Assembly: GCA_030248135.1 (NCBI GenBank)
Contig: JASANC010004626.1
Span: 100,595 to 164,594 of the forward strand
Direction: 5' to 3'
DNA length: 64,000 nucleotides
Source of the DNA: Theristus sp. LFF4_11
Lineage: Eukaryota > Nematoda > Chromadorea > Monhysterida > Xyalidae
The notes beneath the pieces are model-generated. The model had not been told where the DNA came from. It made no database searches and saw only the letters and a program-made list of their open reading frames with translations. Positions 3,329 to 63,984 of this stretch are shown piece after piece. Each line of letters starts with the position of its first letter. Position 1 is the stretch's first letter. The translations under genes were made by a program, and so were the position numbers.

Positions 3329-3449
3329 CCCCCCCTAAAATTAGGCAAACACCCCCCAAAAATTTTTTCGAGCTATCTGTCAATCTGGAAAATTTGCTCC
3401 AGCTATCTATATCGGCTTCCGCCCCGGCTCTGGAACAACTCGTCTCGTC
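3329..3449. repeat. Fragment of CATAGTTGTTC-family element
   Basis: The stretch has AAATTAGGCAAACACC followed by AATTTGCTCCAGCTATC and CGGCTCTGGAACAACT. The same order of phrases ends the elements at 34,958 and 37,728. Only one end is present here and the final ATG of the terminus is missing. Confidence 0.6.
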
Positions 3450-3691
3450 GCATCCGTGGCGCAGCGGTAGAATTTCGGCCTACAGTTCTGTAGGTACCGG
3501 GTTCGAACCTCGCTGTGGACAAAACATACTCGTGGAAAATTAGAGTGACCAACGAACACCTAATGGTCTATTCCCTCCTGAGCCGAGGGTAAAATTGGGC
3601 TCGGGGCAGTATTGCCCGTCTCCGCCGGAGTTTGGTACCTTCGGGTTTCCGGAACCGGCGCGCGTATAATTAAATAAAATATAAATAAAAC
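3450..3691 (+). mobile_element. tRNA-derived SINE
   Basis: The 5' part carries pol III promoter boxes: A-box-like TGGCGCAGCGGTAG and B-box GGGTTCGAACC, spaced as in a tRNA. The acceptor stem does not pair well, so this is not a functional tRNA. The body contains GGGGCAGTATTGCCCGT and CCGGAGTTTGGTACCTT and ends in an AT-rich tail. The same body phrase recurs at 20,040-20,105 without the tRNA part, which shows a dispersed family. Confidence 0.75.
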
Positions 3692-4513
3692 TACAGTTGA
3701 ACTCAATAAAATGTGGAATCTGCTGATTGGTCGGCCGAGGGGAGGTTGCTCACACTCCGCACCCTTCTTTTTTCGTAGATCTGGATTCTATTGAAACGTG
3801 TTTCTTTTGAATGAGTGTGAATTTCCAGCACCCTTTTCATTCCAAAAAATAAACTCGAAGGGTTGGAGAACTGCGAAATTTAGATTTTTTTTATTCAACA
3901 GCTCAAATTGCATTTGTTTATTGACGACGACGACGACGACGTCGTCGCTTAATTTTTGCGTGTGAACTGAAAGACAAAAGCCTGAAAGGAGTGCGCTGTG
4001 CATGGTTTGCTGCGTGCACCAAGTAAATGAACACAGCAGCTTACCAAAAACAACTTGAAAACGGTGAAAATGAAAGATAAAAGCAAAGTCGTGGTCATGT
4101 CGTCGTCGTCCGCGAAGTCGGAACGCATTTTTTTTAATTGCGGACGCATGTCGATCGGTCAGCTGGGAATGAAACCCCCTTCAGCTGGCTACACAGCGCA
4201 CTCATTTTAGTGTTTTGTCTTTCAGTTCACACGCAAAAATTAAGGGGCGACGTCGTCGTCATCGTCAAACAAAAATTGCATTTTGAGCTGTTGAATAAAA
4301 AATCTGAATTTCGCAGTTCTCCAACCCTTTCAGTTTATTTTTAGCATGAAAAGTGTGCTGGAATTTTACACTCTTTCAAAAGAAACACGTTTCAATGCAA
4401 TCCAGATCCATTTGTAGAATCCGGATCCACGAAAAAAGAAGGGTGCAGAGTGTGAGCAGCCTCCCCTCGACCGACCAATCAGCTGATTCCATATGTTATT
4501 GAGTTCGACTGTA
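3692..4513. mobile_element. 822-bp foldback MITE, TACAGT ends
   Basis: Two arms of about 330 bp are inverted copies: TACAGTTGAACTCAATAA at the left and TTATTGAGTTCGACTGTA at the right. GCTGATTGGTCGG follows on the left, and CGACCAATCAGCTGAT precedes on the right. The inner parts include mirrored (GAC)n/(GTC)n runs near 3,925 and 4,245. The outermost 50 bp match the small intronic MITEs (for example 45,090-45,113), so all probably share a transposase. The flanking TA suggests a TA target. Confidence 0.8.
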
Positions 4514-52783: not shown

Positions 52784-53611
52784 ATGTCGAAAATGGGCGC
52801 CCCATCATCCGACAGTGACTGGGACTCGGTGACGGTGCTGCGCAAGAAGGGACCGGCGCAGAAGACGCTGCGCACGCAGGCGGTCAGTTCGTGTTGTTGT
52901 CTTGCGGCTGGCGAATATTCTGATGTCACCTAGGATTTTTTTTCATTCAAATTAGTGCAGTTCGCGAGCTCCGGGAAAACGGCATACGAGGCGTGACGTG
53001 CCGTGCCGTGCTGTGTATACGCACACGTCTGGTATGAACGGGCCTTCAGGGTGAGCGGGGCTGCATGTGAGCGATGCATTTTTGCTGACTGCAGGATCTG
53101 AACGCAGCGCAGCGTGCGGGCGCGCAAATCGAGGCGAATCGCAAGATGGACGCCGGCCACAACAAGCAGCACGTGATGACGAAATCGGCTGCGAAACTCG
53201 ATGCCGAGACGGAGGAGCTGCACCACGGCAACGTTGGACTGGACGTGGGCAGGCTGATACAGCAGGCGAGACAGGCGCACGAGTGGACGCAGAAGGAGCT
53301 CGCCACGGTCGCGCGCTTTCGTTTTTTTTCTTCATTCATTAATTATTCGCGCATCGGTTCCGGAAACCAGAAGGTGCCAAACTCCGGTGCACAAAAACAT
53401 TTCACCAGTCACGAAGAATGAATCACGCTGGACATTGCGTTTTTTTTTCAATTTTCAGAAAATCAATGAGAAACAACAGGTGGTGAACGAGTACGAATCA
53501 GGCAAGGCGATCCCGAACCAACAAGTGCTCAGCAAACTCGAACGCACACTCGGCGTGCGGCTCAGGGGCAAAGAGAAGGGACAGCCGTTGCCGCAGAAGG
53601 GCAAGAAGTGA
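52784..53611 (+). CDS. EDF1: Multiprotein bridging factor 1 (EDF1), 154 aa
   Basis: MBF1 is a small conserved co-activator that bridges TBP and bZIP/nuclear-receptor factors and also senses collided ribosomes. Exons 52784-52882, 53095-53307 and 53459-53611 sum to 465 nt; human EDF1 has 148 aa. The N-terminal MBF1 domain contains [14 protein letters not shown] and the lysine-rich segment around [20 protein letters not shown]. The C-terminal Cro-type helix-turn-helix spans [20 protein letters not shown] to [20 protein letters not shown] and ends [11 protein letters not shown] plus a basic tail. The ATG has a good context (GTGACAATGTC). All phases are zero. Confidence 0.95.
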
Positions 53612-54219
53612 TATTAAATTGTAAAAAGTGAGTTGCAGTGGCAGACTGATCCGTCACGATGAACTGTGGAAATCGCCGCTTCGAATCGACTGAGAGCTGC
53701 CAGGTTAACGGATCGGTCTGTATTTTCGATTCTGTTGTTTCAGACGTGACAAATCATAGATCGCCTGTATCAAAAGTAGCTAATTCCGCAACAGCCATGC
53801 CAGATTGTTTCATTCGTTGCGTTAACTAACACCCTGTTCATATATTTCTGTTATCAAATATCACAAATGTTTTTTTTGCGGTTGTTATTATGCCCGTTAC
53901 TGTTGTGATTATGAAACTAAGATATTTCGGACAAAAAAAGGAACGAATGCCAATCGAAAAACAATAAAAGATGGAAAGTGAAAAAGAATAATATCAAGTT
54001 ATGCAAGATATCATAAAATACACATGAATAGTTGTTATGTCAACAAAACGGGTAAATGCCCAACTATGTACATGTAACAACGAATGAAAAGTTTGGTTTG
54101 GTTGCAGTCTACAGTGGCACTCAAGAAAATCAGATCACTCAAAAAACACTCGAAAAACCTTGAGCACTGCAATGCACGAATCGTAGTGTTTGAACGTGCA
54201 GTTTAGGCGATGCCGACGT
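53612..54219. other. Region between convergent genes
   Basis: This is the 3' flank of MBF1 and of the minus-strand gene. No gene or repeat was recognised; a possible polyadenylation word AATAAA occurs at about 53,964. Confidence 0.4.
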
Positions 54220-56138: not shown

Positions 56139-56673
56139 TGTTACGAAGCTAAAATTAGCTAAAGCTAAAGACATTAGATAAAAATGGAGAAGATTCCAGA
56201 AATCAGAAAAAACGCAAACATGATGTCAATAAGGAAGTAAACAGGTAGAAGAGTCATGTAAACAAACAATCACATGACTCCGGAAACAGTCACAACAATC
56301 AACAAACGGGTAAACAAATAATCAGGTGACTGAAACAGAAATAGATCATGACGACATTGGAACTAAAGGAATGCAATGCAAAAGATACGTCCTCACATGA
56401 ATCATATCACCTAAAAAGGTGATGACGCAAATGGAAGCTAGACACAACAACATTTCGTCAGATTTCGTTGAAGGTCACCGGAACCCTATATAAGGAGACC
56501 GGAACCAACCCCAAGACACACTTTGTTTTTCATTCTATTTCATCCTTTTCTATTGTTGCGGACAGTTGTTAAAACGGAAATAAAAGATAATTCTTAATCA
56601 TTCGGACTGTCGGAATTTATTCGTAGTAAACACGAAACTATTAGGGACCTAACCTAACAACAGCACCGTAACA
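56139..56673 (+). mobile_element. 5' long terminal repeat of Ty3/gypsy-type element, 535 bp
   Basis: It begins TGTTACG and ends CGTAACA, a perfect 7-bp inverted terminus with the usual TG...CA. It is placed exactly by comparison with the empty copy of the MITE at 47,376-47,390. It contains a TATA box (TATATAA, 56,487-56,493) and a polyadenylation signal (AATAAA, 56,579-56,584), giving a U3-R-U5 order. The 3' LTR is outside the window. Confidence 0.92.
56487..56493 (+). promoter_or_regulatory. LTR TATA box
   Basis: TATATAA lies 187 bp before the LTR end and about 90 bp before the AATAAA. This spacing suits a start of transcription near 56,520. Confidence 0.6.
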
Positions 56674-57084: not shown

Positions 57085-57630
57085 ATGAGTCAGAATAAAA
57101 CTGTAAAGAATAAAATTCCTGCACAAAAAGCGCACAATCAAAAGAAAAAAATAGCTCAGAAAACGTTCCGCCAAGCAAAGATGATGCAACAGCAATTTAG
57201 AAAACATACAGAATCGAAGCCGTACGATGTTAAAATCATCTCACAGCGTGATCCGTACGCAAAGATTGAAAAAGAGATTAAGCGGCAAAAGGAACTGAAA
57301 CTTATACAACATTTGAGAGAAAACGATGAAGCATTTTGGATTGGGAATGTCAGCGGCTCAAGAAAGAAAGTGCTTATCACAGAAACAAGCAACTTTGAAA
57401 AATTTGGCATCCGCGCACAGCAAATCGCTCCGAAAACAACGACAATTTATGCGTGTAACGATCAAGGTAAGCCAGTGAGGCGAGTCAAACTTGAATTACC
57501 AGGAACAGTCAAATGTGTTATCAACGGGCACAGCATAAAAACTAGCCTTGACATAATAAACCCTCACACCAAAGAAGTTCAATATTGGCAGGAAACAGAG
57601 AACAACAATTTTACATTTTTGCCGCAATAA
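57085..57630 (+). CDS. Retroelement accessory ORF 1, 181 aa
   Basis: An ATG-started ORF in the leader, between the primer site and gag, so it is the first coding region of the genomic RNA. The N-terminal 100 residues are Lys/Gln-rich and very basic (NKIPAQKAHNQKKKIAQK) and could bind RNA. The C-terminal part has GKPVRRVKLELPGTVKC and ends ETENNNFTFLPQ, which is repeated in the next ORF. A GT donor (CAAG|GTAAGC, 57,466/57,467) lies inside at phase 1. No known family is recognised. Confidence 0.6.
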   Translation: MSQNKTVKNKIPAQKAHNQKKKIAQKTFRQAKMMQQQFRKHTESKPYDVKIISQRDPYAKIEKEIKRQKELKLIQHLRENDEAFWIGNVSGSRKKVLITETSNFEKFGIRAQQIAPKTTTIYACNDQGKPVRRVKLELPGTVKCVINGHSIKTSLDIINPHTKEVQYWQETENNNFTFLPQ

Positions 57631-57679: not shown

Positions 57680-57910
57680 TTGGTGGAAAAATATACAACA
57701 AAGTGTGCAGTACGCTTTGAAAATCCAGGCATCCAGGGAACGCCGGTTCGACGAGTAGCAGTGCAGCTACCGGGTAAAGTGAATTGTAATCTTGAGAATT
57801 GTAATACGCGCCAGCACATGGCTTTATTGCAGCCTACTGATATCAAGCTGCCGGAGAAACAGTGCTGGCAAGAAATAGAGAGTAACAATTTCAGATTTTT
57901 ACCACAGTAA
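57680..57910 (+). CDS. Retroelement accessory ORF 2, paralogue of ORF 1 C-terminus
   Basis: The frame is open for 76 codons, from an ATG inside TGGTGGAAAAATA-like sequence or by splicing. It shares GxPVRRVxxxLPGxVxC and CWQEIESNNFRFLPQ with the end of ORF 1, so it is a tandem duplicate. An acceptor (AAATCCAG|GC, 57,728/57,729) has the phase needed to join the ORF 1 donor at 57,467. It could therefore be an alternative last exon rather than a separate gene. Confidence 0.5.
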   Translation: MVEKYTTKCAVRFENPGIQGTPVRRVAVQLPGKVNCNLENCNTRQHMALLQPTDIKLPEKQCWQEIESNNFRFLPQ

Positions 57911-58049: not shown

Positions 58050-58271
58050 AAAATCACAACAAATTTTGCCAGTTCGAGCGTCGAAGTCAGTCTCAGAATT
58101 ATCAACGCTATTCGGAAAACATTGTTTGGATTTACGACACTGGAAAACACGCTGGTGAACGCGGGCAGGAATCTACGGAATTTGGCGTTTATATTTGACC
58201 AACAGACCAAAGCATCGAAGACCGGCAATAAAATACGCTATTTGGCTGACAACTTCAGGCCATCCGAAATC
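58050..58271 (+). other. Exon-like segment upstream of gag (X)
   Basis: After ACATTTTAG the frame is open for 74 codons up to a strong donor (GAAATC|GTGAGTAA), and it is phase zero at both ends. It contains INAIRKTLFGFTTLENTLVN. The gag ATG lies 43 bp after the donor, inside the would-be intron, and the frame differs from that of gag. The segment could splice to the acceptor at 59,754. Confidence 0.4.
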
Positions 58272-58314
58272 GTGAGTAACCTTTATTTTAATTTTTATTC
58301 GTTGAGTGTTCAAA

Positions 58315-61300
58315 ATGTCGCGATCTCACGAAATCCTAAATTTACAACAAGCGCTGGAAGAAGAACAAGCCAAATTTAAGCAGGCCGATAAGCATTTAAA
58401 AGAAGCTAGATTGAAAGTACGCAACCTAGACAGTACAATAAAAGATCAAACACACCAGATAGAAGCGCTAACTCTAGAGAGAAATTTGTTAGCTGAGAAA
58501 GAAGGCCAAAATAACAATGAACAAAACTTTGCTAAAATTCAAGAACTCTTGGCGCACCGGGATAAATTGTTAAAAGAACTCGCTCTAGCGAAAGATCAAT
58601 TAGCAAACACCAGCGAATTTGAAAACACTGATAAAATAATGGCTAACAACAATGTTCCCAACTGGCTTTTAGCCAGTCCTAAAATTCAGCCATTCCGTGG
58701 TGACGATGTCGCTATACCAGCAAAAGAATGGTTTGATAAATATGATAAAATCACAACGGGGATGGGTTACAATGACGCAAAAAAATTAGAGATGCTGTAT
58801 TTAGTTTTAGATGGCCCTGCAGAACAGCGCTTTAGAAAGTACAGTGATGAAATCAAATCAGATTTTACAACAGTATGCGCTCAATTAATAAAGGATTTTT
58901 CAACTCAAGGAAATAAGCAAGCAGCTTTTAGGGCATTTAGTTCCAGAAAGCAAAAACCAAAAGAGCTAGCAATCAGCTATGCCGCAGAGCTACAAAAAAT
59001 GTATGACGCAGCTTTTGGTGTGGAAACGCGCGATCAAACAGGCGAAGTGATGCTTTGCAGCACCTTTTTAGCAGGTTTACAGCCGCATCTGGCAACTGCA
59101 TTAATTTCAATTCCAAAGCTGCCAGAAAATTTTGATGAGCTAGTAAAATTAGTCGGCGAATACGAACTAAGAATGGAGCAACCGGAGTACCATAAAAATA
59201 CAGCTGAAAACACCGCAATGGATAGCAGAATAGAAAGCATGCTAACTGGAATGCGGGAAATATTAGACACAATGAAAGTTTCGCAACAAAATCAATTAAG
59301 TTATGCAGTCCAAAGCCGAAACACACCTCAAAATTTCTCTAATAGAGGTCGATTCACTAGAAATTTTAGCAGAGAAAATTTTAGGGGAAACCAAACATTT
59401 AGAAGAACATTTAGTAATAAAGGTCGTGGAGGATTTCAAAACAATTATTTTCATGAAAAGAACATGCCCAACGCAACCAACCAAAATACAAGTAACAATA
59501 GCGCGTGCTATTTTTGCGGCATCCGAGGCCATTTTAAATCAGAGTGTCGAAAATATAAGCGATCGATAGAACAAAACAATCAACAACAAAAGCAAGGAAA
59601 TTCTCAAAACCATCAAGTAAGAGCAGTCGATCAAAAACAAGTTTCGAATTTAAATCACTTGCAAACAATCGAAGGAGATAGCAGGTTTAATGAATTTTGT
59701 GAACGAGTGGCAGAACATCTAGATCAGAAAGAAAAACATTTACTGCCCTTTCAGGAATTTGGCGCCGTGATGACGACACCGAAGCACAAGCACTGTCGCC
59801 GGAGCACGCGAAGCTCTACGACTCAAGATAGCTTCGATTATCTTCGACCGGCATCATCAGTGCCGGAGTCCGTGGTGACTGAGGCGACGCAGCAGTCACG
59901 ACAAGGGGACGCGATGTTGTCCAAAATGGACGACATTAAAAACAAGATCGACCAAGTCATTCTTTTGTTGCAGCAGCAACAACAACAAAAGAAAGAGGAT
60001 AGTGCCGAGCCAGCAAGTCCAGGTGACGCTCAACAGCCGGCCATTCCCGGTCTGGGCAACGAACCGGTGTATGGTGGCGCTGGCGCTTCCGATTGGATTT
60101 ATGGACGTGGCCGTGGTCGGGCTGGCCATCGTCGCCGTGGTCACAGATTCGCTCCGTATGGACGCGGATCATGGTCCCCACGTCCGTGGGGAGCGCTGAG
60201 CATTGTCATGGCGTTGATCGCAACTGTGGTGCTTGCGACAGACTCGGTGGTTAGTCAAAAATTGGAATTTCAAATATGTGATCATATCAAAAAGGGTTAC
60301 CCAGTCGAAATTCCACGAGAAGTAAAATGCGTAATACCAGAAAGAAAACAAGAAGTTAGATCGCAACAGGTTTTTCTTTGGATAGCTAGACCAAAACCAT
60401 TCAGTGCGCAGGCATTTAAATGTATTAACCAAACTACTAGAGTGTGTACACACGAATCTATTGTTTTCGGAAAATCGAAAATAAGTGAGCGAGTTGATCA
60501 TTATCAAGTAGACGAGAAACTTTGTAACTCGGCAGTGAGTCATGTATTGAACTGCAGCATGCATAACTCGGAAATTTGTATGACCAATTTATCAGCAGCA
60601 CCTTACATTTTCAAACTTGAGGAAAACACATGGTCAACCAAAAATGTTATGCATCTCAAATTTACTTATTGTTGCTCGACTTATTGTGACAGTGTAGTCT
60701 CGAATTTAATTATACAAAAAGGAAAAATTTTCACTTTCAATGGAGAACACTTTATGAGCAATTTAGCTGATATTTCCCGTTGTAATTTTAAGCGACAACC
60801 GGTATGCCATACAAAGGGTGGCACAATCGTTACACATAGTGCGTATTTTGAAGCAATTAATAAACCTCAATGTAAATATATTAGAAAAGGTCCATACTTA
60901 GCAAAAATAGCTGGCAGCCATGTGGTGATCAACGAATTACAGTTGGCTTTAATCTTGGAAAACTCATCGTCAATAGAACTTTGCGGTAATAGAGTAAATC
61001 GTACGAAAAGCGCATATTTTATTCAGAACGCGCCGTTGGACGCCATTGACAGCACCAGTGGCAATCAGCAGATCGCGCCTGACGTGACGAAACGCCCGAA
61101 TTCGATCGCAATCTTGGGTGAGTCAAATCACATTAATAGTTCATCTACAAGCAGCCAAAACACGGAAATTTTAAACCAAGGCGACCACAACATGAAATTC
61201 CAATTCATTTACGATAAGATTACTGAAATTATGTTTGAGACTTTTGCGGATACTTGGCAACATTTGTGTAGATTGGCAAATTGGAATCTGCGTCTTACTT

Positions 61301-63984
61301 ATCAGTGGTTGAAAGCGGAACCGTCTTATGGCATGCAAGTTCTTTTGAATGATTCCAGTATTGTTGCTGATTGGGATGGAGATGCAATAATTATTGGAAA
61401 ATGTTCCATAGTAGAAGGAGTGCCAATTTATGATCACTCACTACCTGATGGCCGATGCACTAAACTCTTACCTGTTATTGTAAAACATAAATTGTATTTC
61501 GTTAAGCCAGGGACAAATGAGTTAATCAAGACAAGCCCCTACGCTGATTGTAACGCTAACCATTGGTATCATAAAAGAGACTTGGTGCATTGGTCGACAG
61601 ATCAAGGTTTGCATGATGTTGAACCCTTGCCAATAGAATTTATAATAAAAGGAGAGGTTGAGCCATTTGTTTTTGACGCACCAGACGTGATCGACCACCA
61701 AATGGAACTTCGGAGCGCACTTTACATGCTAGGAGACTATATAACAGAAACTATACAGTTGCGCGCGCAGTTCGATGCATTGACACATTATACAAAACAA
61801 ATGGCTTTCGATCCAAACATTGTAGGAAGCGTAATTAGGTCAGCAAGCAAAGGTATCGCAAGTTCAGTAAAATTGGTAGGAGACACGGTTGATGATGTAA
61901 CTCATAGCATTGGCTCAGGTCTTTCGAACCTGCTTAGAGGACCAATTCAATTTCTTTTAAACATTGTAATCATAGTTATAGTAATAATAATTATGATAGG
62001 ACTGATATTTCTTTCTTTCAAATGTCCTTGTGTACGTGAAAAACTACGGTATTTTAAAAGACGAAATAAGGACAACAATGCTGATATGAGAGTTACTTTT
62101 TCTAAAGAAAATGAAATATGTAAAATTAAGCCATGTATTCAAAATTTAGGTGCCATGGGCACGATGGCAGACAGCGACGGTTACGAAAAAGTGCCGATCG
62201 ATGACGATCAAATGGGCAAAAACGGTGAGTGGCCTAAACAGGAGAAAAGAATTGACATGAGAGTAAGATTTTCAAAACAAGACGAATCATGCACAATTGA
62301 ACCTGCCGCTCAAAATTTAGGTCCGCACAAGATGCGTCAGCACGACCAAAACCGGGATATGGTCGCAGTCAAAGATGCCAACGGTGCAAATCATGGTAAG
62401 TGGCCACGAAGTTGGTTAAATTCTGTTAACAATGCAGATAATTTGGCATGTTTAAAGGCACCTCAATGTATAGTCCCAGTTCATATAAATAGCATGGCGT
62501 CAAAAGGTTTATTGGACTCAGGTTGCACAGTTAGTTTAATTAGCAAACATTTAGTAGCTCGAATAGGTTGTGAAATACAACCATATGATGTGTCTCTAAC
62601 GAGTATGACTGGTCATGATCTGAGAGTTGAAGGAACAGTGCGTTTAAACTTATGGATTGGAAATCTTGAGTTTAAAAATCATTTATTTGTTGTTGTGAAT
62701 GATGCTAAACATGATGTGGTGATAGGATATGAGATGTTTCACAAGCTATCACCACTGGAATTTAAAATTAATCAGGATGGAAAAGGTTTCATAAATGCTT
62801 TGGGTGAACAAATTAAAATAGGAGATCCTGATCTAACGTGTGATGGAAAGTGGCCTGTCATAGTAAAGGAAGACACATGGATACAGCCACGTGTTGAGCA
62901 ATTGTTAAAAACAGATGTGAAATATCCATGTAAATTAATAATAGGGTTGTTTGAGCCATCGTATGAGTTCGAAGAACGCACGGGATTGATTTGTGCAAAG
63001 GTTCTAGTGACAGTTGATGAAAGTAAGGGCATTCCTGTAAAGGTGTTGAACAGTTCGGTAATACCTAGAAAAATATATAAAGGTATGGTTATTGGATTTA
63101 TAACATCGACTGATAATGTCGTCGCAGCAGTTCACATGAATGAGAAAGTGCCACCAAGGTTAAAAGAAAATGAAACATTACAAAGCCGCTGGGAAGAATT
63201 GAAGATGCAATTAGATTTGTCAGGATCGAACGCAACAGATCAAGACAAAGAAAAGTTGTGTAACTTGTTATCTGCATATTCTGATTGTTTTGCCTTGCAT
63301 GACTTGGACTTGGGAAGATGTAACATGGTACGATTTGAAATTGACACAGGCGATGCCAAACCAGTTTTTAAGAAAGCGTACCGTGAACCACGAAGAAAAC
63401 AAGAACTAATCGAAGAATATGTTGCCAAGTTAGAAAAGCATGGGTTGTTGAAAAAGTGTGCGTCACAATGGGGCAGTCCAATATGCCTTATTGAAAAAAG
63501 AAAGCCTAATGGTGGATTGTCTCATCGTATGGTATGTGATTACAGACTATGCAATGAAGTTATCAAATGTGACAAATGGCCGTTACCTCATGTGGATGAT
63601 TTATTGAGAAATTGTGGTCAAGCAGCATGGTTCTCGACTTTAGATTTGGCAGCGGGTTATTGGCAAGTGCCACTACACCCTAACTCAATGGAAAAATTAG
63701 CAATCACAACACACAATGGCACGTACTGTTGGACAGTCATGCCACAGGGAGTGAAACCTGCAGGCCCAGTTTTTCAACGTTTAGTAACAGCCATAATGGG
63801 AAATTTAGTCGGTAAAAATTTGTGGGTTTACATCGACGACTTGTTAGTATTAGGATCGTCAATTGAACAACATTTAGAAGTGCTCGAGGAAGTTTTGTGT
63901 AAATTAAGACAAGCCAACCTGCGGTTGAAATTGCGAAAGTGTGAATTTTTGCGCAATAAAATTGAATTAGAAAATAGACAATGA
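58315..63984 (+). CDS. Gag - envelope-like - protease - reverse transcriptase polyprotein, one frame, 1,889 aa
   Basis: The start is the ATG at 58,315 (CAAAATGTCG). Domains in order: a coiled-coil N-terminus (1-100), a Retrotrans_gag-type capsid (about 110-290, with FRGDDVAIPAKEWFDKYD), a Cys-His knuckle CYFCGIRGHFKSEC (398-411), the GC-rich Arg/Gly segment (about 480-640), an envelope-like glycoprotein (about 625-1255), a duplicated 57-residue linker, aspartic protease LLDSGCTVSLIS (about 1400) and reverse transcriptase with TLDLAAGYWQVP and YIDD (1839-1842). The frame stops shortly after KCEFLRNK, before the end of the polymerase, so RNase H and integrase are missing or lie in another frame beyond the window. 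A single gag-env-pol frame is unlike the usual gag-pol-env order. The gypsy assignment rests on the RT motifs. Confidence 0.85.
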   Translation: MSRSHEILNLQQALEEEQAKFKQADKHLKEARLKVRNLDSTIKDQTHQIEALTLERNLLAEKEGQNNNEQNFAKIQELLAHRDKLLKELALAKDQLANTSEFENTDKIMANNNVPNWLLASPKIQPFRGDDVAIPAKEWFDKYDKITTGMGYNDAKKLEMLYLVLDGPAEQRFRKYSDEIKSDFTTVCAQLIKDFSTQGNKQAAFRAFSSRKQKPKELAISYAAELQKMYDAAFGVETRDQTGEVMLCSTFLAGLQPHLATALISIPKLPENFDELVKLVGEYELRMEQPEYHKNTAENTAMDSRIESMLTGMREILDTMKVSQQNQLSYAVQSRNTPQNFSNRGRFTRNFSRENFRGNQTFRRTFSNKGRGGFQNNYFHEKNMPNATNQNTSNNSACYFCGIRGHFKSECRKYKRSIEQNNQQQKQGNSQNHQVRAVDQKQVSNLNHLQTIEGDSRFNEFCERVAEHLDQKEKHLLPFQEFGAVMTTPKHKHCRRSTRSSTTQDSFDYLRPASSVPESVVTEATQQSRQGDAMLSKMDDIKNKIDQVILLLQQQQQQKKEDSAEPASPGDAQQPAIPGLGNEPVYGGAGASDWIYGRGRGRAGHRRRGHRFAPYGRGSWSPRPWGALSIVMALIATVVLATDSVVSQKLEFQICDHIKKGYPVEIPREVKCVIPERKQEVRSQQVFLWIARPKPFSAQAFKCINQTTRVCTHESIVFGKSKISERVDHYQVDEKLCNSAVSHVLNCSMHNSEICMTNLSAAPYIFKLEENTWSTKNVMHLKFTYCCSTYCDSVVSNLIIQKGKIFTFNGEHFMSNLADISRCNFKRQPVCHTKGGTIVTHSAYFEAINKPQCKYIRKGPYLAKIAGSHVVINELQLALILENSSSIELCGNRVNRTKSAYFIQNAPLDAIDSTSGNQQIAPDVTKRPNSIAILGESNHINSSSTSSQNTEILNQGDHNMKFQFIYDKITEIMFETFADTWQHLCRLANWNLRLTYQWLKAEPSYGMQVLLNDSSIVADWDGDAIIIGKCSIVEGVPIYDHSLPDGRCTKLLPVIVKHKLYFVKPGTNELIKTSPYADCNANHWYHKRDLVHWSTDQGLHDVEPLPIEFIIKGEVEPFVFDAPDVIDHQMELRSALYMLGDYITETIQLRAQFDALTHYTKQMAFDPNIVGSVIRSASKGIASSVKLVGDTVDDVTHSIGSGLSNLLRGPIQFLLNIVIIVIVIIIMIGLIFLSFKCPCVREKLRYFKRRNKDNNADMRVTFSKENEICKIKPCIQNLGAMGTMADSDGYEKVPIDDDQMGKNGEWPKQEKRIDMRVRFSKQDESCTIEPAAQNLGPHKMRQHDQNRDMVAVKDANGANHGKWPRSWLNSVNNADNLACLKAPQCIVPVHINSMASKGLLDSGCTVSLISKHLVARIGCEIQPYDVSLTSMTGHDLRVEGTVRLNLWIGNLEFKNHLFVVVNDAKHDVVIGYEMFHKLSPLEFKINQDGKGFINALGEQIKIGDPDLTCDGKWPVIVKEDTWIQPRVEQLLKTDVKYPCKLIIGLFEPSYEFEERTGLICAKVLVTVDESKGIPVKVLNSSVIPRKIYKGMVIGFITSTDNVVAAVHMNEKVPPRLKENETLQSRWEELKMQLDLSGSNATDQDKEKLCNLLSAYSDCFALHDLDLGRCNMVRFEIDTGDAKPVFKKAYREPRRKQELIEEYVAKLEKHGLLKKCASQWGSPICLIEKRKPNGGLSHRMVCDYRLCNEVIKCDKWPLPHVDDLLRNCGQAAWFSTLDLAAGYWQVPLHPNSMEKLAITTHNGTYCWTVMPQGVKPAGPVFQRLVTAIMGNLVGKNLWVYIDDLLVLGSSIEQHLEVLEEVLCKLRQANLRLKLRKCEFLRNKIELENRQ
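59506..59547 (+). other. Gag zinc knuckle
   Basis: A CX2CX4HX4C motif (CYFCGIRGHFKSEC) that binds the packaging signal of genomic RNA in retroelement nucleocapsids. It is intact. Confidence 0.9.
59755..60249 (+). other. GC-rich island E1 with acceptor and donor
   Basis: CTGCCCTTTCAG precedes it and GTTAGT follows GTG at its end. It is 165 codons in phase zero, with host-like GC-rich third positions unlike the AT-rich gag before it and envelope after it. It encodes MLSKMDDIKNKIDQVILLLQ, a poly-Gln run, an Arg/Gly cluster (GRGRGRAGHRRRGHRF) and a hydrophobic segment (SIVMALIATVVLA). The hydrophobic segment can act as signal peptide for the envelope-like part that follows, or as a membrane anchor if the island is spliced onward. 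Confidence 0.6.
60190..62080 (+). other. Envelope-like membrane glycoprotein module between gag and pol
   Basis: It starts with the hydrophobic signal-like segment at 60,190-60,245. About 560 residues of ectodomain follow, with many Cys and Asn-X-Ser/Thr sites, then a Gly/Ser-rich amphipathic stretch (SVIRSASKGIASSVKLVG), a transmembrane segment (IVIIVIVIIIMIGLIF, about 61,960-62,010) and a short basic Cys-containing tail. The layout near TWQHLCRLANWNLR and the IIIGKCSI strand resembles class III fusion glycoproteins of the kind retroelements have acquired from negative-strand RNA viruses such as chuviruses. That identity is an inference from layout only. The module lies in frame inside the polyprotein. 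Confidence 0.6.
61027..61117 (+). other. GC-rich island E2 with acceptor and donor
   Basis: It is bounded by TTTTATTCAG and by G|GTGAGTC. Phase is 0 at entry and 1 at exit, matching E1 and E3. It interrupts the envelope-like ectodomain with 30 codons of different composition (DAIDSTSGNQQIAPDVTKRP). Confidence 0.55.
62150..62224 (+). other. GC-rich island E3 with acceptor and donor
   Basis: It is bounded by AAAATTTAG and G|GTGAGTGG, 75 nt, phase 1 to 1. It encodes TMADSDGYEKVPIDDDQMGK. With the following 96 nt it forms a unit duplicated as 62,321 onward. Confidence 0.55.
62321..62395 (+). other. GC-rich island E4 with acceptor and donor
   Basis: It is bounded by AAAATTTAG and G|GTAAGTGG, also 75 nt and phase 1 to 1. 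It encodes KMRQHDQNRDMVAVKDANGA. Both its acceptor and its donor are in the same relative place as those of E3, consistent with exon duplication. Confidence 0.55.
62455..62830 (+). other. Retropepsin domain
   Basis: The active-site loop is LLDSGCTVSLIS (Asp codon 62,515-62,517), with Ser in place of the common Thr of DTG, which many retroelement proteases tolerate. A hydrophobic strand and DVVIGYEMF, corresponding to the second conserved Gly region, follow at about 62,715-62,740. It would cut the polyprotein as a dimer. Confidence 0.8.
63320..63984 (+). pseudogene. Reverse transcriptase, broken after the thumb border
   Basis: The fingers and palm are complete: SQWGSPICLIEKRKPNGG, RMVCDYRLCN, FSTLDLAAGYWQVP, WTVMPQGVKPAGPVFQRL and the catalytic YIDDLLVLGS (YIDD codons 63,829-63,840). 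After KCEFLRNK, where the family continues with a conserved hydrophobic-Gly-His segment, this copy reads a few unrelated residues and stops (TGA, 63,982-63,984). A deletion, frameshift or splice site must lie near 63,955. The remaining 16 bases do not show which. Confidence 0.7.

Follow-up and report, generated by a model that had tools for sequence, protein, structure and literature searches.

We analysed a 64,000-nucleotide window that forms the end of a contig (C2922, positions 100595-164594) in the 159-Mb genome assembly of the nematode Theristus sp. LFF4_11, and found in it a gypsy-type long terminal repeat (LTR) retroelement. A single long frame (58306-63984) leads from a gag-like part with a CCHC knuckle through an envelope protein (Env) to a protease and reverse transcriptase (RT). 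Judging from the sequence, we consider it likely that regulated splicing of the retroviral kind is written into this gag-Env-protease/RT frame, with an exon for the Env leader that would be shared between Env and a multiply spliced regulator of the Rem/Rec/CERV type.

Exon-like islands in the long frame

Five islands, each preceded by AG and followed by GT, are strung along the leader and the frame (Table 1). The first-pass annotation had read them as a phase-matched chain of exons, and its segments, AG/GT borders, phases and gap lengths proved exact to the base. The gaps of 777, 1,032 and 96 nt are indeed multiples of three without stops; because they encode Env, their being stop-free is no evidence for splicing. 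Donors of the form GTGAGT or GTAAGT are present as claimed, but their count was too low at three: four of the five are GTRAGT. The first gap, of 1,483 nt, is not a multiple of three and contains the gag start, with an in-frame gag ATG at 58,315, about 43 nt downstream of donor 58271. GC content is 0.53-0.58 in islands 2 to 5 and only 0.43 in island 1, which lies outside the frame of the large open reading frame (ORF).

Island 2 has an ATG at 59,770, 15 nt past its acceptor, and its product runs, by eye, from a Gln-rich part through an Arg/Gly-rich part to a hydrophobic, signal-like end. Past the contig end of the window, a phase-compatible acceptor followed by an early stop is present after pol in the copy on contig C2804 (position 20499).

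Copies resembling reverse transcripts of spliced RNA

The first junction of the chain, 58271/59755, has its counterparts joined in a related family, B. A family-B copy on the minus strand of contig C1385 joins ...GCAATTCAG to GAGTTCAACGG, whereas between the same points the copy on C808 holds 1,528 nt (GTAAAC...TTCCAG) that are exactly absent from C1385 as assembled. This junction unites the leader with island 2 and has five equivalent placements, one of them GT-AG. Upstream, the leader of the spliced copy is colinear back to the LTR, and downstream both long Env gaps are retained; the copy resembles the reverse transcript of a singly spliced RNA. The splice predicted in the first-pass annotation was thus recovered in family B, from which we infer it for the window copy. 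The donor used in C1385 (L030rc 1834/GTAAAC) supports the right border of island 1. The left border is without support, and in view of the colinear leader island 1 does not stand as a separate internal exon, as had been proposed.

Another family, E, provides a second such case. Its copies on C1786 and C2907 hold 213 nt (GTGAGA...TTTTGCAG) that are exactly absent from C138 as assembled, with three equivalent placements of the junction, one of them GT-AG. The segment is in frame, phase 1-1 and stop-free, lies in the Env leader and is not among the introns proposed earlier.

Five large deletions between sibling copies have resolved ends, the one across gag in family B coming from a direct comparison of copies and not from our scan of 16 stretches. 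Two of the five fit GT-AG exactly and without filler; the three that do not are those in C1621 and C1054, both with filler, and a pol deletion common to both C1385 copies. The latter was considered as a splicing product and rejected, as it lies at a short shared stretch and lacks GT-AG. The two copies concerned (L031 and L032) are near-identical and in opposite orientation, and their pol deletion ends in the 3' untranslated region; because both share it, the defective form seems to have been copied itself.

Conservation in a diverged family

A search of the genome with the N-terminal Env piece returned 19 matches, on the four contigs with the window's own family (A) and on 11 others. Within family A, C2922, C2804 and C1621 are 100% identical over this piece and C3666 has it in two broken pieces. 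Family B (C808, C1385 in three pieces, and C1054) matches at 42-58%, and the remainder at 23-28% (C351 twice, C1696, C2984, C2907, C138, C1786, C2329 and C733). The env regions of A and B share about 47% amino acid identity. Among themselves the four B copies agree at about 99%, so A versus B amounts to one comparison.

In that comparison, the B islands lie between the same domains as those of A, with order and phases (0-0, 0-1, 1-1) unchanged and AG/GT at each. Acceptors 2 and 3 fall in the same alignment column. Donor 2 is 9 residues ahead of the same Cys in both families by eye, although one automatic alignment gaps it, and donor 3 and the borders of island 4 sit in indel-rich stretches, shifted by a few residues. 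Island 2 keeps its first residues, the spacing of its ATG, the Gln-rich and Arg/Gly-rich parts and the hydrophobic end, whereas islands 3 and 4 are barely alignable; island sequence has largely diverged. Loss of AG or GT with the frame kept, which would have spoken against splicing, was seen in none of the four B copies at the borders that each retains, their near-identity making this a single test. The family A copies are too alike for testing such loss, and substitution patterns among them (about 99% identity over most segments) carry no power. In C3666 the second Env gap is altered.

We also asked whether the islands could be host exons captured by the element. Their composition is exon-like, and two exons, delimited by eye, of a nearby MBF1-like host gene have GC contents of 0.63 and 0.55. 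A DNA-level search, however, placed island 2 of A at three sites in the genome, the window included, and island 2 of B at three, all of them element copies, and the shared position, first residues and Gln-rich and Arg/Gly-rich layout of the two point to descent. We therefore give capture hardly any credence.

Composition and splice signals

The first-pass annotation had suggested computing GC3 along the ORF; at fourfold-degenerate sites, the islands turned out GC-rich in both families and the gaps not. At these sites in family A, G or C occupies 71/120 positions in islands 2 to 5 versus 156/563 in the rest of the frame (P 1e-10); the figures for family B are 61/98 in islands 2 to 4 versus 178/565 (P 1e-8). 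Amino acid content cannot explain a bias at such sites. A composition segmentation that was blind to splice motifs was run at three settings. In A it recovered 59,761-60,249 each time (splice borders 59,755-60,249) and 61,024-61,122 twice (splice borders 61,027-61,117); in B it recovered 3,339-3,767 (splice borders 3,363-3,773). Its borders were 0 to 24 nt away from the splice sites. It missed islands 4 and 5 of A and islands 3 and 4 of B, all of which are short.

Splice signals were scored against a generic animal consensus, which may not be that of this host. For an unchanged protein sequence, the chance that synonymous codon choice would jointly yield signals of this quality or better is about 1e-5 for six borders of B, which the first-pass annotation had not selected, and 2e-7 for eight borders of A, a value biased by their having been so selected. 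Taken singly, the borders are unremarkable (P 0.03-0.42). Counting from the leader donor through the end of the scanned stretch, the two top-scoring donors among 312 GTs in A and the two among 316 in B are all at island borders: in A those of islands 4 and 5, in B those of islands 2 and 4. One further donor, in the leader at 57,467, equals the best two in score but falls outside the count. The donors of island 2 in A and island 3 in B are weak, with 54 and 63 GTs, respectively, scoring equally well.

Chance combined with the amino acids of disordered linkers (Gly, Arg, Ala and Asp) might yield GC-rich patches and their borders. By eye, these residues abound in the islands, and the ordinary quality of each border alone would fit; yet it is synonymous fourfold sites that are biased, a diverged family shows the same bias, and segments were lost exactly at GT-AG in two families, so that this explanation seems highly improbable to us.

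Alternatively, the islands could be structured RNA elements, such as export or packaging signals, with the splice-like borders as by-products. Island 2 of A folds better than its shuffles (z -3.9), as do 200-nt folding windows at 59,750 and 59,850 (z -3.8 and -3.2). Island 2 of B, in contrast, has a z of only -0.7, folding windows over islands 3 to 5 of A range from 1.3 to -1.4 with no clear excess, and neither GT/AG nor the phases would be explained. Elsewhere, z falls to -2.4 in folding windows around island 4 of B and to -2.7 in pol windows of A that contain no island. We judge RNA structure to be an improbable account of the islands. As a separate observation, the start of island 2 (59750-60050) folds far better than shuffled RNA in A and not in B, and may be a family-specific RNA element.

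Proposed splicing scheme

In the scheme that we favour, unspliced RNA would give the polyprotein, and splicing from donor 58271 to acceptor 59,755 would give an Env message, with the conserved ATG 59,770 as its probable start. Splicing from island to island, with excision of the 777- and 1,032-nt gaps, would remove the Env ectodomain and anchor and produce a small protein consisting of the Env leader (Gln-rich, Arg/Gly-rich, hydrophobic end) and short hydrophilic exons. Running from ATG 59770 to a few codons into the post-pol exon (C2804 20499), it would have about 250 residues by coordinate arithmetic. Donor 62396 used alone would yield an Env with a short tail, released from pol. By analogy with MMTV Rem, HERV-K Rec and Cer1 CERV, the small protein may control whether unspliced RNA is exported from the nucleus or packaged. 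The high GC of the islands would serve their recognition as exons, whereas the gaps would have to pass for introns, and the exons would sit where the protein tolerates them: in the Env leader, a probably disordered stretch of Env, and the Env tail. We further speculate that, in the unspliced polyprotein, Gag and Pol lie on one side of the membrane and Env on the other. The original idea of an accessory protein overlaid on structural genes is upheld in part, in its conserved, phase-matched chain of exon-like segments, the Arg/Gly-rich stretch of island 2 and the hydrophobic end.

Several observations weigh against this scheme. No copy shows the 777- or the 1,032-nt gap spliced out, and a copying error between short stretches of shared sequence could in principle account for either of the two exact junctions, although such errors would have had to fall on splice sites by chance both times. 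Some borders are weak (GTTAGT, GTAAGA, and a TTTAG behind few pyrimidines). Island 5 and gap 3 are without a counterpart in B, where the last exon is ambiguous, with two candidate acceptors by eye. Scans of the distant families C, D, E and F for splice signals and composition revealed no clear chain of islands 3 to 5, which leaves A and B as the basis of the full chain. For the function of the product, analogy is the sole guide.

In a narrower explanation, only the first intron matters: splicing at 59,755 would supply an Env or Env-Pol message, and islands 3 to 5 would be fast-evolving linkers whose signals are unused or incidental. The sole junction fossilised in B is of this type, in a copy that retains both long Env gaps, and islands 3 to 5 are short, with blind segmentation recovering only island 3 of A among them. 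On the other hand, fourfold-site GC is raised in islands 3 to 5 of A (0.56-0.85, at 8-13 sites each, versus 0.12-0.33), family B retains the order and phases of the borders, and the best donors belong to islands 4 and 5 in A and to islands 2 and 4 in B. We regard the first intron alone as an unlikely explanation and prefer the multiply spliced scheme.

Element class and envelope protein

Profile searches matched an aspartyl protease and RVT_1 in the window and RT_RNaseH, Integrase_H2C2 and rve downstream in C2804, where the frame remains open and encodes RNase H and integrase. In the window, a stop at 63,982 closes the frame at the contig end, matches to other copies being already over at 63,968. 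The LTRs and the order protease-RT-RNase H-integrase fit Ty3/gypsy (Metaviridae). BEL-Pao elements are described with the same order (PMC7642597), so order cannot separate the two, and we treat the element as probably of gypsy type with a domain order identical to that of BEL-Pao. A search with the pol piece against viral contigs gave one pattern-matching stretch and no relative.

The profile PF24664 (Monjiviricetes_fusion), which we take to represent class III fusion proteins, matches AT gap 2 of A (2.4e-9) and families E (5e-14) and C (1e-14), all above the cut-off; A matches only through AT gap 2. The membrane anchor is in the same gap, at about 61,940-62,020 by eye. A structure model of 60250-62148 was weak, with a mean predicted local distance difference test (pLDDT) of 52 and a predicted template-modelling score (pTM) of 0.33. 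The best 50 of 309 Foldseek matches to this model were herpesvirus glycoproteins, nearly all named gB; the best E-value among the matches listed was 9.7e-14, with TM-scores of about 0.2 and root-mean-square deviations of 31-59. Jointly, the profile match and Foldseek point to a class III-like Env, the whole fold not being established. A protein search with the Env piece yielded 3,455 candidates, none at E <= 0.01. Because prediction confidence is very low at residues 261-320 of the model (mean pLDDT 23-33), the stretch of Env around island 3 is probably disordered.

The gag-Env-pol order recurs in families C, D and E; for F (C2329) the examined stretch gave no pol match, and G (C733) is cut at the contig end. 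By eye, families C, D, E and F have a hydrophobic, signal-like segment ahead of the ectodomain, and translations of the Env leader of A, B and E have a basic stretch and a signal-like hydrophobic end. The leaders of C, D and F (L034, L036 and L041) carry Cys/His knuckle-like clusters, by eye, where A, B and E have Arg/Gly-rich stretches. A stretch rich in GC at third codon positions is found in the Env leader of C and D, and in D it stops 10 nt short of a GTTAGT donor; for E and F, composition segmentation was of no use. The Env stretch of family E that aligns after island 3 (L039, L040) contains RKKRS, presumably similar to the furin site of a class III fusogen.

Other features of the window

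The 5' LTR of the window and the 3' LTR of C2804 differ by one mismatch in 535, which suggests that family A is young. The 181-codon ORF upstream of gag is about 53% identical to its family B counterpart, has 19 matches in the genome, counting the one in the window, and matched no Pfam family; a second, partial copy lies right behind it, at about 57,680-57,910. The zf-CCHC match in the gag-like part (E 5e-4, 20.4 bits) is slightly below the curated cut-off of 20.8. AT gap 3 is 52% identical over 27 amino acids to the last 27 residues of AT gap 2, and together with its island looks like a tandem duplication in A. The host gene at 53095-53612, which by eye we take to resemble MBF1/EDF1, has a short intron with a TTTTCAG acceptor. 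A search for SL1 RNA, meant to help place the host, had no hit, but neither did any of 14 control genomes, so the result carries no information.

Table 1. Features of the element in the window
Feature	Position	Strand	Remarks
5' LTR	56139..56673	+	535 bp; TGTTACG...CGTAACA, TATATAAGG within
Presumed primer-binding site	directly after 5' LTR		AATGGTGTTTCCGCCC; assigned by position only
181-codon ORF	57085..57627	+	upstream of gag
Island 1, leader stretch	58050..58271	+	222 nt; ends at donor 58271/GTGAGT
Gag-like part with CCHC knuckle	58306..59754	+	inside proposed first intron 58272-59754
Island 2 / exon 2	59755..60249	+	495 nt; ATG 59,770; donor 60250 GTTAGT
AT gap 1, proposed intron	60250..61026	+	N-terminal Env part
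Island 3 / exon 3	61027..61117	+	91 nt; within Env; donor GTGAGT
AT gap 2, proposed intron	61118..62149	+	fusion-protein core, membrane anchor, tail start
Island 4 / exon 4	62150..62224	+	75 nt; phase 1-1; donor GTGAGT
AT gap 3	62225..62320	+	96 nt
Island 5 / exon 5	62321..62395	+	75 nt; phase 1-1; donor 62396 GTAAGT
Protease and reverse transcriptase	62396..63984	+

Comparison with known systems

If the scheme is correct, the element would stand beside Cer1 as a gypsy-type element whose splicing is controlled in the manner of retroviruses, and would combine an unusual order (env between gag and pol in one frame) with a class III-like fusogen. It would also offer a natural test of exon definition: the RNA would be coding whether spliced or not, so synonymous sites would record the splicing needs of the host. 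More broadly, there may be a lineage whose env gene also serves as the introns of a regulator, the exons being placed in the leader, disordered stretch and tail of a class III fusogen, and one RNA giving polyprotein, Env or regulator by splicing; for this wider view we see the chances as about even. In the open-licence literature, judged mostly from listings, we recognised no system with this layout.

In Retroviridae, including mouse mammary tumour virus (MMTV) and human endogenous retrovirus K (HERV-K), env is located after pol. Here it is ahead of pol in one frame, and there would be three or four internal exons beyond the leader exon, which sets the element apart from MMTV Rem and HERV-K Rec. 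The likeness lies in the leader: in these systems, a long Env leader or signal peptide with a nuclear-localisation sequence is common to Env and the Rev-like Rem, and Rem is made from doubly spliced RNA (PMC8725593, PMC2661877, PMC2649029, PMC12724133). For a leader that Env would have in common with a regulator, MMTV Rem and its signal peptide offer the nearest parallel (PMC8725593).

The first-pass annotation knew of no such case in a gypsy element, but CERV of the Caenorhabditis elegans gypsy/Ty3 element Cer1 is one (PMC3315495, PMC10309623). As described there, Cer1 has one long polyprotein frame, an unspliced 8-kb RNA and a spliced 2.4-kb RNA (PMC3315495); CERV shares in-frame peptides with the polyprotein, and export of the unspliced RNA needs CERV (PMC3315495, PMC10309623). 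Its mRNA is spliced from five exons, four of which (1-3 and 5) use the polyprotein frame, and in both elements the unspliced RNA must bypass good splice sites (PMC10309623, PMC3315495). The two differ in that exons 1-3 of CERV share Gag sequence and exon 4 uses another frame, whereas here all exons would keep the frame. The C-terminal half of CERV corresponds to residues of about 1949-2199 of the polyprotein, and the Cer1 passages concerned make no mention of Env, whereas the exons proposed here thread through it.

The mosquito BEL-Pao element Anakin is likewise an LTR element with a glycoprotein of Jingchuvirales/chuvirus type (PMC7642597). It differs in being BEL-Pao, and the other envelope-like proteins cited in that paper are downstream of the polyprotein, whereas Env here is inside the frame (PMC7642597). 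What would be new here is thus the combination of exons threading through Env, the gag-env-pol order and the class of the fusogen; the kind of splicing itself is known.
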